Part shown: positions 4,318 to 55,876 of the stretch, in pieces | How positions within the stretch are numbered: the first letter of the stretch is position 1 | Layout: every line of letters begins with the position of its first letter | Assembly (NCBI RefSeq): GCF_000015825.1 | Contig: NC_009051.1 | Location: forward strand, 1,668,695-1,732,694 | Length of the DNA: 64,000 bases | Reading direction: 5' to 3' | From: Methanoculleus marisnigri JR1 | Lineage (GTDB): Archaea > Halobacteriota > Methanomicrobia > Methanomicrobiales > Methanoculleaceae | Position numbers and translations under genes: made by a program | The notes under the pieces: generated by a model | Seen by the model: the letters and a program-made list of their open reading frames with translations, nothing else | Told to the model about the DNA's origin: nothing | Database searches by the model: none

Positions 4318-4436
4318 CAGCAACCAACCGTTCTTCGCGTTCTTCGAACCTGCGGTGCTCAAACTCCAGACTCGAAGCCTGACGGCTTCTCATGCTCCGG
4401 ACGTCCCGTCCGTCGCACCCTACGGCCCGTCATTCC
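4318..4436 (-). repeat. Array of short hairpin units (minus-strand orientation)
   Basis: Read on the minus strand this stretch contains consecutive small stem-loops: GGACG-GGA-CGTCC flanked by GCGA and GGAGC, then AAGCC-GTCA-GGCTT flanked by GAG and CGAG, then CACC-GCA-GGT followed by TCGAAG. Units and flanks match arrays at 12.4, 14.8, 20.8, 25.7 and 55.7 kb. The array lies between the convergent PP2C and HEAT-repeat genes and covers the last codons of the latter. The end near 4330 (TTCTTCGCGTTCTTCG) resembles the right terminus of the 12.3 kb element. Confidence 0.75.
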
Positions 4437-4941
4437 CTATATCGCGGAGCGCTTCAAGGATTGCCGCACGGACGCCGTCGGTCGCCTCACCCTCCAGGGC
4501 GGCACGCAGCGCCAGAACCGCCTCCTCGCCGCCGATCGTCCCGAGCGATCGGGCGACGCTCCGTCGGACGAACTCGTTCTCGTCGTTTCGCATCGGCCCG
4601 AGCCGCTCGACCGCCCGGGGATCGCCGAGCAGCCCGAGCCCTTTCGCCGCCATGTAGCGGACGTGATCCTTTTCATCGTCGAGGGCGGCGACGAGGGCCG
4701 CATACGCCTCGCCGTCGGCGAGCAGCCCGAGGGCCTCCGCCGCACGATAGCGCACCCTCCAGTCGCCGTCCGATAGCAGGGCGATGCAGGCGGGCACGGC
4801 ATGTTTTCCAATCGCCACGAGCCCGTGCATCGCTTCCGCCCGCACCGTCTTGTTCGGGTTCGAGAGCCTTGCGATGAGAACCTGCAGGTCCCGGCTATTC
4901 GAACGATCGTCTCCCGGTTCAGGAGGTATACTCTGAGTCAT
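4420..4941 (-). CDS. HEAT-repeat protein (PBS-lyase-type repeats)
   Basis: The product from ATG 4941 has 173 residues. It consists of four to five helical repeats of about 31 residues (for example DWRVRYRAAEALGLLADGEA and DHVRYMAAKGLGLLGDPRAV), the E-Z/PBS-lyase type of HEAT repeat. The frame extends upstream, but a TATA-like TTTATCTAC lies about 30 bases ahead of ATG 4941, which favours this leaderless start. Such proteins are scaffolds or modulators of other enzymes; no partner is evident. Its stop codon lies inside a hairpin array shared with the convergent PP2C gene. Confidence 0.85.
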   Translation of the reverse strand: MTQSIPPEPGDDRSNSRDLQVLIARLSNPNKTVRAEAMHGLVAIGKHAVPACIALLSDGDWRVRYRAAEALGLLADGEAYAALVAALDDEKDHVRYMAAKGLGLLGDPRAVERLGPMRNDENEFVRRSVARSLGTIGGEEAVLALRAALEGEATDGVRAAILEALRDIGNDGP

Positions 4942-12168: not shown

Positions 12169-12331
12169 GTTTAGAATCACCTCAGGTTCAGCGTTTCCGC
12201 CACATTCCTTTTCGGGACGTATCCCGTGGTTCCTAACAGGTTGACGGGAGCGCAAATAAAGGATTCCCCCGGGGTCCCGCGCCCACCGGGGGCTCCGGTA
12301 TATTGACCCTCCTTATTCTGGTATTTCACCT

Positions 12332-12552
12332 CACGCGAAGAGCGCGAAGCCGCGAAGTACGACTTTCCCGAAGGGAAAGGAGTTCGAGCACCGCCAGTGC
12401 GAAGTGCGACGTTCCGTAGGAACAGAGCTTGAGAAACCCGAAGGGTTTCGAAGTGCGATCTCCCCGTAGGGGAGGGAGGGTGAGAAGCATCAGACATCTC
12501 AGGGAATCCGCCAACAGCCAACCGATCTTCGCGTTCTTCGCGGCTTCGCGTG
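12332..12552 (+). repeat. Hairpin array bounded by CACGCGAAG-type inverted repeats
   Basis: The ends at 12332-12357 and 12527-12552 are about 26-base imperfect inverted repeats built from CGCGAAG words, starting CACGCGAAG. Inside are five consecutive stem-loops: 12363-12379 (CTTTCCC-GAA-GGGAAAG), 12389-12399 (CACC/GGTG type with one mismatch), 12411-12423 (GTTCC-GTA-GGAAC), 12433-12449 (GAAACCC-GAA-GGGTTTC) and 12460-12474 (CTCCCC-GTA-GGGGAG). Flanks alternate between GTGCGA...GAGC and GAG...CGAAG. It lies between rpl15e and moaC and has no reading frame of its own. Confidence 0.8.
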
Positions 12553-12605
12553 ATGCCGGATCCTTCACACGAAGGGGCATGTGGGAAGATCGATCCCGCA
12601 GTGCC

Positions 12606-14562: not shown

Positions 14563-14725
14563 GTTCTGTACCTCCAGGAGCGTTGTCTGATCGGTGCTTG
14601 GCGTTTCTTTCTTAGATAGTTTTAGTTTCTGACCGGGGATGCGCCGGGGAGGCTGTTGGTTTAAAGCGGCGTCGACAGGCGACACCCACTGGTGCTTACG
14701 CTCATTCTCGGTTGCACGTGCCCAT
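14563..14725. other. Intergenic stretch before the repeat elements
   Basis: About 160 bases upstream of nnr holding its ribosome-binding site and, farther out, an AT-richer tract (TTCTTTCTTAGATAG) that may hold its promoter. No gene is seen. Confidence 0.4.
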
Positions 14726-15020
14726 ACACGGATTCCCACCGGATATCGCCATTGGGGGAACGACCGTCCGCAGGAGCGACAGTTCACTAGAACTGGAGCG
14801 TGAGCACCGAAGGTGCGAAGAACCGGCGCTCGACCACCGTCAGGTGCGAGGTGCGAACGGAGTGAGCATGAGAAGACCGAATGTCCTCGAGGGGGAGCAT
14901 CCCCCCTCCCCTGTCTTTATCTCATAAAACTCTACTTGTGACCCCCACCGCCCGCGCTTCGCGCTCCTCCCGCCCCCAAGGGGGCGGGCAGTGCGTGGCG
15001 ATACTCCCACGAAATCCGTA
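14726..15020 (+). mobile_element. Composite foldback (MITE-like) element, copy A
   Basis: The left end reads ACACGGATTCCCACC then GGATATCGCCATTGGGGG. The right end (14989-15020) reads GTGCGTGGCGATA...GAAATCCGT, the approximate reverse complement of the left end. Inside are hairpins such as AGTTC-ACTA-GAACT, CACC-GAA-GGTG and CACC-GTCA-GGTG with GTGCGA/GGAGC/GAG flanks, then a GGGGGAGCATCCCCC palindrome followed by TCCCCTGTCTTTATC. The right arm is GC-rich with further palindromes (CGCGCTTCGCGC, CGCCCCCAAGGGGGCG). No coding capacity and no clear target duplication. It sits in the nnr/DHH divergent region. Confidence 0.75.
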
Positions 15021-15071
15021 ACCCCGGAGCGGGCCGGGACGCCGCACTTCCTCTAACATCTTCTCGGACGG

Positions 15072-15246
15072 TGGACCGTGGGGGTATCGCCGTTGGGGGT
15101 GGGGCTGACGGGGAGGGGGCAAGACCCCCTCCCCTGTCTCTACCCGCAAGACTGTACCTGTGCCCCCACTCGAAGGCCTCCGGCCTCCTCCCCCTTCCTG
15201 CTGGGCGGGGGCAGTTCCCGGGCGTTGCCGGTGGGAATCCGTGCAC
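15072..15246 (+). mobile_element. Composite foldback (MITE-like) element, copy B (short)
   Basis: The left end GTGGACCGTG...TATCGCCGTTGGGGG and the right end (15220-15246, GCGTTGCCGGTGGGAATCCGTG) are related to the termini of copy A. The centre has GGGGAGGGGG...CCCCCTCCCC then TGTCTCTACC, and the right arm has GGCCTCCGGCCTCCTCCCCC. This copy lacks the hairpin array. It is joined to copy A by a linker (CCGGAGCGGGCCGGGAC, about 15023-15040) that recurs between two elements at 25.3 kb. Confidence 0.7.
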
Positions 15247-20446: not shown

Positions 20447-20610
20447 CCAGAGGCGTTTGCCGCGAGGGGTTTTATGGGTAGTGATCGGGTGGTGGAGGAG
20501 GGTGAGGGGTTTCAGGTAGGCGGACGAGGAACCGCAGGACTAGGCACCTGGCATCTCCGGTGCTCGTGTTCCTGCCCTTCAAATCTGCTAATTCCTTGTG
20601 GTTACACATA
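20447..20610. other. Upstream region of coaD, no gene seen
   Basis: About 160 bases between the coaD start and the first terminal repeat of the following element. A short GGCACCTGGCATCTCCGGTGCTC segment resembles a degraded hairpin unit. Nothing else is recognisable. Confidence 0.4.
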
Positions 20611-21050
20611 GCACGGTTTCCGTGGGAGTATCACCATAGGGGGGAGGGGACAAAGGGGAGTGCGAGCGCAGCGAGCATGAGAAACTCGAAGAGTTTCGAG
20701 GGGGGGATGCTCCCCCCTCCCCACCTGACGGTGGTCGAGCTCCGTTCCTTCGCACCTTACGGTGCTCACGCTCCGGTTCTAACGAACCGTCGCGTATCGG
20801 AACATCGCACTCCCCGTCAGCCCCACCTCGCACCTTCGGTGCTCGAACTCCGCTCCTCAAAGACCTTCGGTCTTCTCGAACTCCTGTCCGAAACCCTTCG
20901 GGTTTCTCAAGCTCCGGCCCTGCACCTTCGGTGCTCCTGCTCCGTTCCGTCGGAACGTCGCACCCTGCGGGCCCTCGCATCCTGCGGACAGTCGTTCTCC
21001 GGAGCGTCGTTCCCCCAGTCGCGATATCCCCTCGAAATCCGTGGATGGTT
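20611..21050. mobile_element. Composite foldback (MITE-like) element, copy C, symmetrical
   Basis: The left end (20611-20645) reads GCACGGTTTCCGTGGG then AGTATCACCATAGGGGGG. The right end (21011-21050) reads CCCCCAGTCGCGATATCCCC then TCGAAATCCGTGG, the inverted counterpart. The left interior holds plus-orientation units (AAACTC-GAA-GAGTTT with GAG/CGAG flanks). From 20720 onward the units run on the minus strand: CACC-GTAA-GGTG, GGTTC-GTTA-GAACC, GCACC-GAA-GGTGC, AAGACC-GAA-GGTCTT, AAACCC-GAA-GGGTTT and GTTCC-GAC-GGAAC. The element is thus an overall inverted repeat. It lies between the divergent coaD and carbonic anhydrase genes and has no coding capacity. Confidence 0.75.
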
Positions 21051-21216
21051 GTGAGCGACTGTCCAAAATACAGGAACGTGAGCACCCCCATGCCGGGTCC
21101 CGACAATCAATCTCCCGGTCTGCCTCCTCGCCTCCCGTCCCTCACCAAACCCACCCGCCCCTCCCCCACATCGATGGAGAACATTTTGTATCGCCGCAAC
21201 CAATAGTAGACTCACT

Positions 21217-24039: not shown

Positions 24040-24740
24040 GTCTCTTCGATTCCGAGATCTGGATCCAGTTGATGACCCTCATCGGGGAGGTCACGTTCTT
24101 CTTCATCCTCGGGATGGTGCTTGCCGCAATAGCCCTCGCGATCATCGCCGCCGCCTCGATCACCAGGGGCAAGTTCTACCTGCCGAGGATCCTGATACCC
24201 GGCATGGTCCTTCTTGAGGGGCTCGTGAAGGCGTTCTGCAAACTCCTCGGGCTGGACGACAAGGATCTCATCACGTTCTTCATAACGCTCCGGAACACCA
24301 TGAACACGAAGGCCTTCTCCGAGACACCCATCGAGCAGCGGGCGGTCTTCCTGCCCCAATGCCTGCGGTCGGCGCAATGTCCGGCGCACCTGACGCCGGA
24401 AGGCCTCAAATGCCGCAACTGCGGCCGTTGTTCGGTCGGGGAGAACGCGGAGTGGCTTGAGAAACTCGGGTACCGGGTATTCATCGTCCCGGGCTCGACG
24501 TTCATCAAACGGATGGTCAAGAAGTATCACCCGCGGGCGATCATCGGCGTCGGCTGCCTCATGGAAGTAAAAGACGGGATCGATATGTCCGATCGGATAG
24601 GGATCATCGCTATCGGCGTCGTGAACGTAAAAGACGGGTGCGTGGAGACGATAGCGGACTGGACCGCGGTGAGAGATACCGCCCTGCTCGGCATCAAACC
24701 CCCGTCAGGTTCCGTAGACTTTCACGGCCCTGCCGAATAG
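24036..24740 (+). CDS. DUF116 membrane protein
   Basis: The 234-residue product has a hydrophobic N-terminal region with one or two helices (about 8-45), then a soluble domain with a Cys set CLRSAQCPAHLTPEGLKCRNCGRC, probably a metal or Fe-S site, and GVGCLMEVKDGIDM farther on. This is the DUF116 layout found mainly in anaerobes and methanogens; function unknown. It is coupled to mtnA. Its 3' end overlaps the convergent bactofilin-like gene by 36 bases. Confidence 0.85.
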   Translation: MSLFDSEIWIQLMTLIGEVTFFFILGMVLAAIALAIIAAASITRGKFYLPRILIPGMVLLEGLVKAFCKLLGLDDKDLITFFITLRNTMNTKAFSETPIEQRAVFLPQCLRSAQCPAHLTPEGLKCRNCGRCSVGENAEWLEKLGYRVFIVPGSTFIKRMVKKYHPRAIIGVGCLMEVKDGIDMSDRIGIIAIGVVNVKDGCVETIADWTAVRDTALLGIKPPSGSVDFHGPAE

Positions 24741-25115
24741 ACGCTCGCTCGTGACCTTGCCGTAGACGAAGATCGTCTCGTCGCTGTTCACGGCACCGAC
24801 ATCGACCCCGGGTCGGAGGGTGACGTTGCCCCCCGCCTTGATCGAATGGAGGCTCGCGTTGTCGCAGATGGTGGCGGTCTCCAGAACCCTGACTGGCCCT
24901 TTTATCTTGGCGTCATGGCCGACGACGATGCTCTCGGCCTCGACGAACCCGCCGACCGTCGAGCCGGGTCCGAGTTCGAGGCGGCCGGCAACGACCATGT
25001 TGCCCCAGATGTGCGTCTCGGGAGGGGTGATGAAATTCCCATCTATCTTCACGTTTCCGTCAAAAAAGGAACCTTTCGGTGCTATATACGTGTCCCCGTG
25101 CCGGTAAACTTTCAT
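24705..25115 (-). CDS. Bactofilin-like polymer-forming protein
   Basis: The 136-residue product is built of repeating beta turns (GNVKIDGNFITPPETHIWGNMVVAGRLELGPGSTVGGFVEAESIVVGHDAKIKGPV...), a right-handed beta-helix pattern seen in bactofilin and related polymer-forming proteins. There is no transmembrane segment. A cytoskeletal or scaffold role is family inference. Upstream of its start comes a run of repeat elements. Confidence 0.75.
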   Translation of the reverse strand: MKVYRHGDTYIAPKGSFFDGNVKIDGNFITPPETHIWGNMVVAGRLELGPGSTVGGFVEAESIVVGHDAKIKGPVRVLETATICDNASLHSIKAGGNVTLRPGVDVGAVNSDETIFVYGKVTSERLFGRAVKVYGT

Positions 25116-25229: not shown

Positions 25230-25292
25230 TCACCCCGCCGGCCAGGGCCGGAGGCAATGCGTGGCGATAGCCAGGGGAAAGCCGTCCCGGGG
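25230..25292 (+). mobile_element. Right-end fragment of a composite foldback element
   Basis: CACCCCGCCGGCCAGGGCCGG...GCAATGCGTGGCGATAG followed by GAAAGCCGT matches the right arm and right terminus of the other copies. The rest of that copy is missing. It is followed by the linker GGAGCGGGCCGGGAC also found between copies A and B. Confidence 0.65.
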
Positions 25293-25332
25293 GAGCGGGC
25301 CGGGACTCCACCCTTTTCCAGTGCCTTCCCAT

Positions 25333-25564
25333 CCAGTGGACCGTGATGGACATCGCCATTGGGGGAGGGGCCGACAGGGAGTGCGATGTTCCGACAGGAA
25401 CGGAGCTCGACCACCGTCAGGTGGGGAGGGGGAGCATCCCCCTCCCCTGTCTCTATCGCGTAAGGCTCTATCGATAGCCCCCACCCCGCCCGGCCTTCGG
25501 CCTCCTCCCCCGCCCCAAGGGGCGGGGGCAGTGCGTGAGGATATCCACAGAAAGCCGTGTACGG
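25333..25564 (+). mobile_element. Composite foldback (MITE-like) element, copy D
   Basis: The left end GTGGACCGTGATGGACATCGCC is shared almost exactly with copy E. Inside are GTTCC-GACA-GGAAC (flanks GTGCGAT and GGAGC) and CCACC-GTCA-GGTGG, then GGGGAGGGGGAGC...CCCCCTCCCC and TGTCTCTATC. The right arm is GGCCTTCGGCC and CCGCCCCAAGGGGCGGGGGC, and the right end GTGCGTGAGGATATCC is followed by GAAAGCCGTG. This is the most compact complete copy, about 230 bases. Confidence 0.75.
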
Positions 25565-25589
25565 TTCTTCCCCAGGTTCTCCCCGTGCA

Positions 25590-26000
25590 GTGGACCGTGA
25601 TGGACATCGCCATTGGGGAGTGCGACTGGTCGAAGGGTGCGACGGACAACGTCCGGAGCTTAAGAAGACGCGGAAGCGTCTTCGAGCAGGAGCATGAGAA
25701 GAACGAAGTTCTTCGAGAGGCCGACGCGGAGTGCGATGTTCCGACAGGAACGGAGCACGAGAAGCCGTTAGGCTTTGAGGTGCGAGCGAAGCGAGCGTGA
25801 GCACCGTTAGGTGCGATTTGCGACGTTCCGAAGCGCGATGGTTCGTAAGAACCGGAGCGTGAGCACCGCAGGTGCGATTTGCGACGTTCCGAAGCGCGAT
25901 GGTTCGTAAGAACCGGAGCGTGAGCACCGCAGGTGCGAAGGAACGGAGCTCGACCACCGTCAGGTGGGGGGCACCATCCCCCCTCCCCTGTTTCTATCCA
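25590..26000 (+). mobile_element. Composite foldback element, copy E, with the longest hairpin array and no right end
   Basis: The left end is nearly identical to copy D. The array holds at least ten stem-loops: CGGAC-AAC-GTCCG, AAGACGC-GGAA-GCGTCTT, AAGAAC-GAA-GTTCTT, GTTCC-GACA-GGAAC, AAGCC-GTTA-GGCTT, CACC-GTTA-GGTG, two of GGTTC-GTAA-GAACC, two of CACC-GCA-GGTG and CCACC-GTCA-GGTGG. The G/C palindrome and TGTTTCTATCC follow at about 25966-25999, but no right terminus is seen before the UbiA-type gene ends at 26065. Confidence 0.75.
25798..25938 (+). repeat. Tandem 61-62 bp duplication inside the hairpin array
   Basis: A block beginning TGAGCACCG and running through TTGCGACGTTCCGAAGCG and GGTTCGTAAGAACC to the next TGAGCACCG occurs at 25798 and again at 25860, with a third partial start at 25921. 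The copies differ essentially only in the loop of the first hairpin (GTTA against GCA), showing recent duplication of two to three hairpin units as a block. Confidence 0.85.
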
Positions 26001-55569: not shown

Positions 55570-55876
55570 CCATACACGGCTTTCCACCTGATATCGCCAT
55601 TGGGGGAGTGCGACTGGCTGAAGGGCAGGAGCACGAGCACCGTTAGGTGCGAGGGGCTGACGGGGAGGGGGGCTTGCCCCTCTTCCCCTGTCTCCTACTT
55701 GCATATCCGGTGCTTTGGATCTGATTGAGGGGCCGTTCCCTTCGTCCCCCACCCCGCCCGGCCTTCGGCCTCCTCCTCCGCACCTTCGGTGCTCATGCTC
55801 CGGCCCTATGGCCCCGTCGCACCCCGCCCCGGGGGGCGGGGGCAGTGCGTGGCGATACCCGATGGAAAAGCCGCGG
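55570..55876. mobile_element. Composite foldback (MITE-like) element, copy F, both ends present
   Basis: The left end (55570-55606) reads CATACACGGCTTTCCACC then GATATCGCCATTGGGGG. The right end (55841-55876) reads GTGCGTGGCGATACCC then GATGGAAAAGCCGCGG. Reversed, the two ends pair over about 30 bases with few mismatches. Inside are a plus-strand unit CACC-GTTA-GGTG, GGGGAGGGGGG...CCCC and CCCCTGTCTCCTACT, GGCCTTCGGCC, and near the right side minus-strand units (GCACC-GAA-GGTGC and a GGCC palindrome followed by CGTCGCACC). No coding frame, no obvious target duplication. It lies between the helicase and mutY genes. Confidence 0.8.

Follow-up and report, generated by a model that had tools for sequence, protein, structure and literature searches.

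The locus studied here raises the question of why a row of very short hairpins, many with different stems that nevertheless remain self-complementary, should lie between two genes of Methanoculleus marisnigri JR1, and whether it is as RNA or as DNA that they fold. The hairpins occupy 25620-25975 of the window, by which we mean the whole stretch of 64,000 nucleotides that was analysed and which belongs to a single contig of 2,478,101 bases. They are flanked by what we take, from translations alone, to be a bactofilin-like gene (24705-25115, minus strand) and a prenyltransferase-like gene (from 26065, minus strand). The array at this main locus extends over 25240-26000, and at least five further arrays are present elsewhere in the window. 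Statistics were drawn from 854 kb, made up mainly of stretches picked around arrays plus nine arbitrary stretches, in which densities are not genome averages; the sampled share is about one third of this genome (G000). Intergenic regions were called by a simple open reading frame rule with a codon-position GC filter rather than from annotation, and the stop-poor arrays themselves give spurious reading frames.

Eleven perfect hairpins of 5-8 pairs were found in 25620-25975, and every hairpin quoted in a preliminary description of the locus was present at its place. That description had seen a different stem in almost every unit, which is nearly so: there are eight distinct stems among the eleven hairpins, because a stretch of 61 nt is tandemly duplicated. 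The units are of two types, B (GCGA-stem-loop-stem-GAGC) and A (GAGCNNGA-stem-loop-stem-GA), which take turns along the array in a fixed orientation. On the plus strand, the left end of a core repeat element (GTGGACCGTGATGGACATCGCCATTGGGGA, 25590-25619, the second at this locus) lies upstream of the main array and is followed by the B-type hairpin CGGAC(AAC)GTCCG (25643-25655), the A-type hairpins GAAGACGC(GGAA)GCGTCTTC (25664-25683) and GAAGAAC(GAA)GTTCTTC (25698-25714), the B-type hairpin GTTCC(GACA)GGAAC with a T.G foot pair outside it (25738-25751), the A-type hairpin AAGCC(GTTA)GGCTT (25762-25775), a minimal B unit, GCGAAGC, with a 2-bp stem and a GAA loop between GTGCGA and GAGC (25787-25793), and the A-type hairpin GCACC(GTTA)GGTGC (25801-25814). 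The duplicated 61-nt unit (25809-25869 and 25870-25930) is single in the orthologous array of a related genome (G004). Over this stretch are found a B-type hairpin of the nested type, GGTTC(GTAA)GAACC (25840-25853, second copy 25901-25914), and the A-type hairpin GCACC(GCA)GGTGC (25863-25875, second copy 25924-25936). At 25885-25945, an outer stem formed by CGTTCC (25885-25890) and GGAACG (25940-25945) has a GAA loop that holds a whole B+A dimer. The last A-type hairpin, CCACC(GTCA)GGTGG (25954-25967), leads into a G/C-rich hairpin at 25966-25983. Related arrays of the window lie at 14722-15215 (plus strand, a related element with an array), 20560-21054 (minus strand), 12335-12560 (plus strand, inside another palindromic repeat, CTCACGCGAAG..CTTCGCGTGA), 4320-4440 (minus strand, short) and 55570-55860 (plus strand, a related element with a short array).

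The flanks, given earlier as GTGCGA...GGAGC or GAG...CGA, are indeed fixed but are better written as GC-GA-stem-GA-GC for B and GAGCNN-GA-stem-GA for A units. In the genome sample, GA adjoins the stem on the 5' side of 189 of 199 units and on the 3' side of 174 of 199, an arrangement that would allow tandem G.A pairs beneath each stem. Some B units have only two pairs (26 of this 2-bp form in the sample), and the one at 25787-25793 is exactly the prototype DNA mini-hairpin. Arrays reach up to about 18 linkers. Folding of the region on the plus strand exceeds chance with both DNA energies (z = -4.9) and RNA energies (z = -6.1); together with the specific intergenic loops, which exceed a Markov control 4- to 80-fold, these scores show that the micro-hairpin arrays are real.

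The loops bear most directly on the choice between DNA and RNA. Hairpins with at least 5 pairs were counted in the intergenic sample against the Markov control, and 668 kb of coding DNA was included. The intergenic excess is restricted to C(GNA)G and C(GNNA)G loops. All four C-G-closed GNA triloops are enriched between genes (observed/expected: cGAAg 87/4.2, cGGAg 28/6.8, cGCAg 24/2.8, cGTAg 21/1.4), as are the tetraloops cGTCAg (48/0.6), cGTTAg (16/0), cGACAg (7/0.8) and cGATAg (5/0). The coding DNA has no excess of C-GNA-G or C-GNNA-G stems. RNA tetraloops of the comparable kind are GNRA, with a purine at the third position. Between genes, GNYA loops outnumber GNRA loops by 88 to 14, cGAAAg, cGAGAg and cGCGAg have zero occurrences in the census, and in the arrays the third base is C in 36 cases, T in 18, A in 8 and G in 2. 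The reading of these loops as RNA GNRA tetraloops was therefore rejected, and with it the earlier suggestion that they are of a kind favoured in RNA. The census does match a published rule for extraordinarily stable DNA mini-hairpins, under which the loop is GNA or GNNA, with N any of the four bases, on a stem that has two or more G-C pairs; the heptamer GCGAAGC has a Tm of 78 C (PMC4686876). Judged from sequence alone, the array hairpins share the loop, the C-G closing pair and the minimum of two G-C pairs of d(cGNAg) and d(cGNNAg) mini-hairpins. The bias of these loops to one strand, also reported earlier, is pronounced: in the arrays the linker strand carries the GNA or GNNA loop of 186 hairpins, the opposite strand that of 8.

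For the analysis of stem covariation, units were picked by their flanks and length only, ignoring complementarity. For 51 different B inserts of 15 nt, pairing was seen in 89.2% of cells compared to 64.4% after shuffling, and both sides had changed in 61 cells compared to 18.9; the signal was lost when the partner was shifted by one to three columns. A larger set (n=74) had 4.81 Watson-Crick pairs of 6 versus 2.98, and as units of related arrays are not independent, all these figures show structure and not the number of origins. The claim that stems change with pairing kept is thus borne out, and covariation in the lower stem of B units is weak past GC/GC. Among distinct units with a lone mismatch at the foot, 20 have T.G on the GNA strand and 4 have C.A, an excess that is as expected if the GNA strand folds. 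Between orthologous hairpins, one-sided stem changes number 107 and compensated ones 34, with both counts inflated by repeat misalignment. Some orthologous hairpins have changed on both sides; one of them is GAAACCC/GGGTTTC in this genome and GAAACTC/GAGTTTC in G004, and both alleles occur elsewhere in the genome. The loop, strand-bias and mismatch data fit a strand that folds as DNA, without proving it.

Comparison with G004 indicates how the arrays change. Identity between the two genomes reaches 97-98% over array loci, with whole modules differing, and the dimers gained or lost between them range from 37 to 61 nt. G004 alone has dimers of 37, 45 and 46 nt, together with blocks of 128 and 131 nt. 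In this genome, a 47-nt B+A dimer, GTTCC(GACA)GGAAC plus CCACC(GTCA)GGTGG (25376-25422, plus strand), lies between GAC and GGGGAGGGGG inside the first core repeat element of the main locus, and the orthologous site is empty in G004 and G015. This first element (25345-25546, plus strand) is MITE-like and of the published repetitive potential G-quadruplex (rPQS) type (PMC8044849), with a left end ..ATCGCCATTGGGGGAG, a G/C-rich hairpin GGGGAGGGGG..CCCCCTCCCC and a right end GGCAGTGCGTGAGGATATCC. Many arrays lie in or beside such an element of about 140 bases, which has the terminal motif TATCGCCA at both ends and whose G/C-rich piece is the rPQS published in 2021 (PMC8044849). The defining features of an rPQS, four G-runs and then a C-rich tract in an intergenic position, are found in the carrier (25423-25447) and not in the micro-hairpins. 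The rPQS of Methanomicrobiaceae occur in the same genomes and the same intergenic places as the arrays, and the hairpin beside the arrays, GGGG-N-GGGG-CTGAC-GGGG-A-GGGGG..CCCCCTCCCC, is the repeat of that report; its accessible text treats the G-quadruplex/triplex piece only, with no alternating micro-hairpins, GNA/GNNA loops, covariation or dimers in the rPQS (PMC8044849). In the genome sample, the rPQS site CTGACGGGGAG holds a dimer in 22 copies and is empty in 17. A second palindromic repeat, CTCACGCGAAGAGCGCGAAGCCGCGAAG...CTTCGCGGCTTCGCGTGA (window 12335-12560 and L140), also hosts arrays, and G003 has two copies of it, one with arrays inserted in both arms.

Dimers are also found within other hairpins. 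A 46-nt dimer of G004 occupies the GAA loop of a hairpin, CGTTCC(GAA)GGAACG, that has no insert in this genome. Eleven distinct nested cases were recognised, and one further candidate is a chance match. The layout is constant: the outer loop triplet (GAA, GTA, GGA or GAT) stays on the left, followed by a dimer of the form GCGA..GAGCGTGA (or GAGCATGA) and a constant GAA before the 3' arm. The outer stems that are hit differ in sequence, and in each the dimer comes immediately behind the loop triplet. Gain or loss favours a few kinds of site, namely the interior of the G-rich rPQS, the neighbourhood of GGGGGA, and the boundary between loop and 3' arm of other B hairpins. Target-site duplications were inconsistent in about ten gains or losses checked by eye, being GGGGAG-like in some and absent at hairpin loops. 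Single events could have run in either direction, because deletion between short GAA(G) repeats could yield the empty versions and gene conversion could move dimers between elements with common flanks. G004 and G086 lack the 12335-12560 array in their orthologous gap; in G006 and G003 that gap is occupied by other units. The array at 20560-21054 coincides with a break in synteny; in G003 and G015 the sequence to its left is on the opposite strand, 20-24 kb from that to its right, the layout that an inversion with one breakpoint in the array would leave.

The arrays form one family that spans the genome and the genus. A 701-base query gave 109 matches in this genome, and about 60 arrays, most of them intergenic, lie in the sampled third. 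With a flank pattern blind to complementarity, this genome has 73 B-type places, as opposed to 3 for the reversed pattern; the counts are comparable in many Methanoculleus species, and one other genus of the family (G092) is also positive. Of 393 genomes of the phylum, 13 match a stricter pattern for A units, and all 13 are Methanoculleus. Most Methanoculleus species have arrays; G002, G014 and G023 have nearly none, and G045 is likewise array-poor. Stem alleles such as CTGCCG(GAA)CGGCAG and CGGACG(GAA)CGTCCG recur in several species, and stem variety is largely drawn from a shared repertoire and shuffled. The stems described earlier as diversifying do vary, but with so many alleles recurring across arrays and species this is largely the reshuffling of an existing repertoire. 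Of 55 arrays in the sample, the gene calls place 50 between genes. Array-bearing gaps are convergent in 19 cases, between genes of the same direction in 27 and divergent in 3, compared to 54, 151 and 58 for all gaps of at least 150 bases. In same-direction gaps the arrays lie on the gene strand by 19 to 8; convergent gaps hold them in either orientation, and along the genome their strands are mixed (34 plus, 29 minus). The sole match on a viral contig is a lone unit on a high-GC contig with no surrounding array; it was taken as chance, and virus-borne spread was rejected.

We lean, with a confidence only a little above even, to the reading that the arrays are a small REP-like dispersed repeat specific to Methanoculleus, built of mini-hairpins that fold at the DNA level and are copied in modules. 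In its favour are the loop census and its match to the published mini-hairpin rule, the phage N4 precedent, the strand bias, the covariation, the preponderance of T.G over C.A at the foot, the gain and loss of 37-61 nt dimers, the nested insertions, the filled and empty rPQS sites and the stem changed in both arms. This reading carries the caveat that gains of dimers with common flanks could be due to gene conversion or to deletion between short direct repeats. Also against it are the lack of a Y1 transposase in this genome and most array-rich relatives, the near absence of reverse transcriptase from the genus, and the larger number of one-sided than of compensated stem changes. The GNA strand would fold when the DNA is single-stranded or negatively supercoiled, as do the GNA-loop promoter hairpins of phage N4, and it may be the folded hairpin that is cut, copied or joined, either by an enzyme acting in trans or by the repair machinery. 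Well-folding units would then be the ones to spread, and their arms might stay complementary partly via exchange of whole hairpins between arrays and partly via rewriting of a damaged arm from its partner. A more specific proposal, which we put forward tentatively and hold to be possible rather than probable, is a minimal mobile system that consists of nothing but folds of single-stranded DNA: pairs of GNA mini-hairpins of about 40-50 nt would be cut out or copied and then placed exactly into the loops of other hairpins by a putative archaeal enzyme that recognises their fold rather than their sequence, so that arrays grow by nesting.

The scarcity of arrays between divergent genes (3 of 49 array gaps, compared to 58 of 263 in the control) and their 19:8 co-orientation with flanking genes leave room for a role at RNA 3' ends. 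Were the arrays transcribed, mostly as the 3' parts of transcripts, their hairpins could protect, terminate or process RNA, and the strong folding with RNA energies and the tolerated T.G foot pairs would agree with selection at this level. We nevertheless consider it unlikely, as the GNRA loops favoured in RNA are avoided, array strands are mixed with either orientation in convergent gaps, and Rfam has no match for the arrays; the strand of the carrier repeat is also uncorrelated with the neighbouring genes in the accessible text of the rPQS report (PMC8044849). Mutation by itself, with GNA hairpins priming template switching or foldback synthesis that makes and repairs perfect stems with neither enzyme nor function, is less likely again. 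Perfect stems can arise and persist through template switching (PMC8794818), GNA mini-hairpins are ideal nuclei for folding back, and changes in both arms do occur between close strains. The foldback copying suggested in the preliminary description is only partly supported, and a general foldback process is disfavoured because C-GNA-G hairpins show no excess in the 668 kb of coding DNA, even if purifying selection in genes could hide such a process. It would also leave the fixed linkers, the strict B/A order and the reuse of stem alleles across species unexplained, and the arrays are essentially confined to one genus. The least probable account, to which we give little credence, is that an old tandem and dispersed repeat has been reshuffled by recombination and the hairpins are inherited structure with no role. 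It would draw on the 61-nt tandem duplication, the up to 14 near-identical tandem dimers at G000:C1:1429784 and the repertoire common to the genus. The stem and loop census and the covariation are at odds with it, loops and closing pairs are conserved while stems vary, which is the opposite of decay, and the mismatch pattern is strand-specific.

Palindromic repeats of small size are widespread. If the units do fold as DNA, a conserved DNA-stable loop joined to a free stem would be a natural record of DNA rather than RNA folding in an archaeon. The family would allow tests in the cell of mini-hairpin extrusion or single-strand formation and of which enzyme reads the shape. It would also test whether compensatory stem change, usually taken as proof of RNA function, can stem from copying at the DNA level.

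Several known systems resemble the arrays in part. Like bacterial REP, BIME and REPIN sequences, they are short intergenic palindromes in many copies, often dimers, that avoid promoter regions. In contrast to REP and BIME, which have a GTAG/CGTC foot, the array hairpins are flanked by GCGA/GAGC and GA/GA; their dimers are direct rather than head-to-head as in REP/BIME/REPIN, and they form arrays with up to about 18 linkers, with variable stems and constant loops. A Y1_Tnp/RAYT-type transposase (PF01797) is absent from this genome and from most array-rich relatives; six of the 31 genus genomes have it, and most of those six are poor in arrays. Mobilisation of the RAYT/IS200 type was rejected on the grounds of its absence here. 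G020, a genome of the same genus with almost no arrays, has 19 matches to the Y1 transposase family, many of them broken. Retro-copying was likewise set aside, as RVT_1 occurs in only 3 of 35 genus genomes. The arrays are not CRISPR arrays, in which unique spacers separate identical repeats, since their variable parts are self-complementary and their stems recur in other arrays and species. With Rfam covariance models the window gave only tRNAs and an eL15 leader and no match for the arrays; a known structured RNA family was rejected. The eL15-Euryarchaeota ribosomal protein leader (RF03144) lies at 12180-12226 on the minus strand, just left of an array.

The phage N4 virion RNA polymerase promoters are short-stem hairpins with C(GNA)G loops that are extruded by supercoiling. 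Extrusion at physiological superhelicity needs the C:G closing pair and the 5' G and 3' A of the loop, and non-conserved stem bases are irrelevant while pairing holds (PMC4496689). However, these are three early promoters of a phage polymerase, with no arrays and no archaeal link. The mitochondrial RHE/DHE elements of sponges and Allomyces are also small, possibly mobile intergenic hairpins that vary between close species; sponge RHEs have conserved stems and variable loops (PMC2800124), whereas the Methanoculleus arrays have conserved loops and variable stems. No earlier description of micro-hairpin arrays was found in the open-licence papers searched, which does not prove that none exists. 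A Methanoculleus-type array also occurs close to an end of L222 (DXJM01000434), a contig of 7.5 kb and 43% GC labelled Candidatus Lokiarchaeota, and is likely due to a chimera or to mis-binning. The accessible part of a paper on M. marisnigri satellites gives repeat lengths of 45 and 51 nt and concerns tandem repeats only, with structure not treated (PMC6749651); from their lengths, these satellites are probably tandem dimers of the arrays. About fourteen near-identical tandem dimers, GAAGTGCGACGGACCGAAGGACCGGAGTTTGAGCACCGTCAGGTGC, lie at G000:C1:1429784-1430450, and they are probably one of the satellites listed in the accessible part of that paper (PMC6749651).
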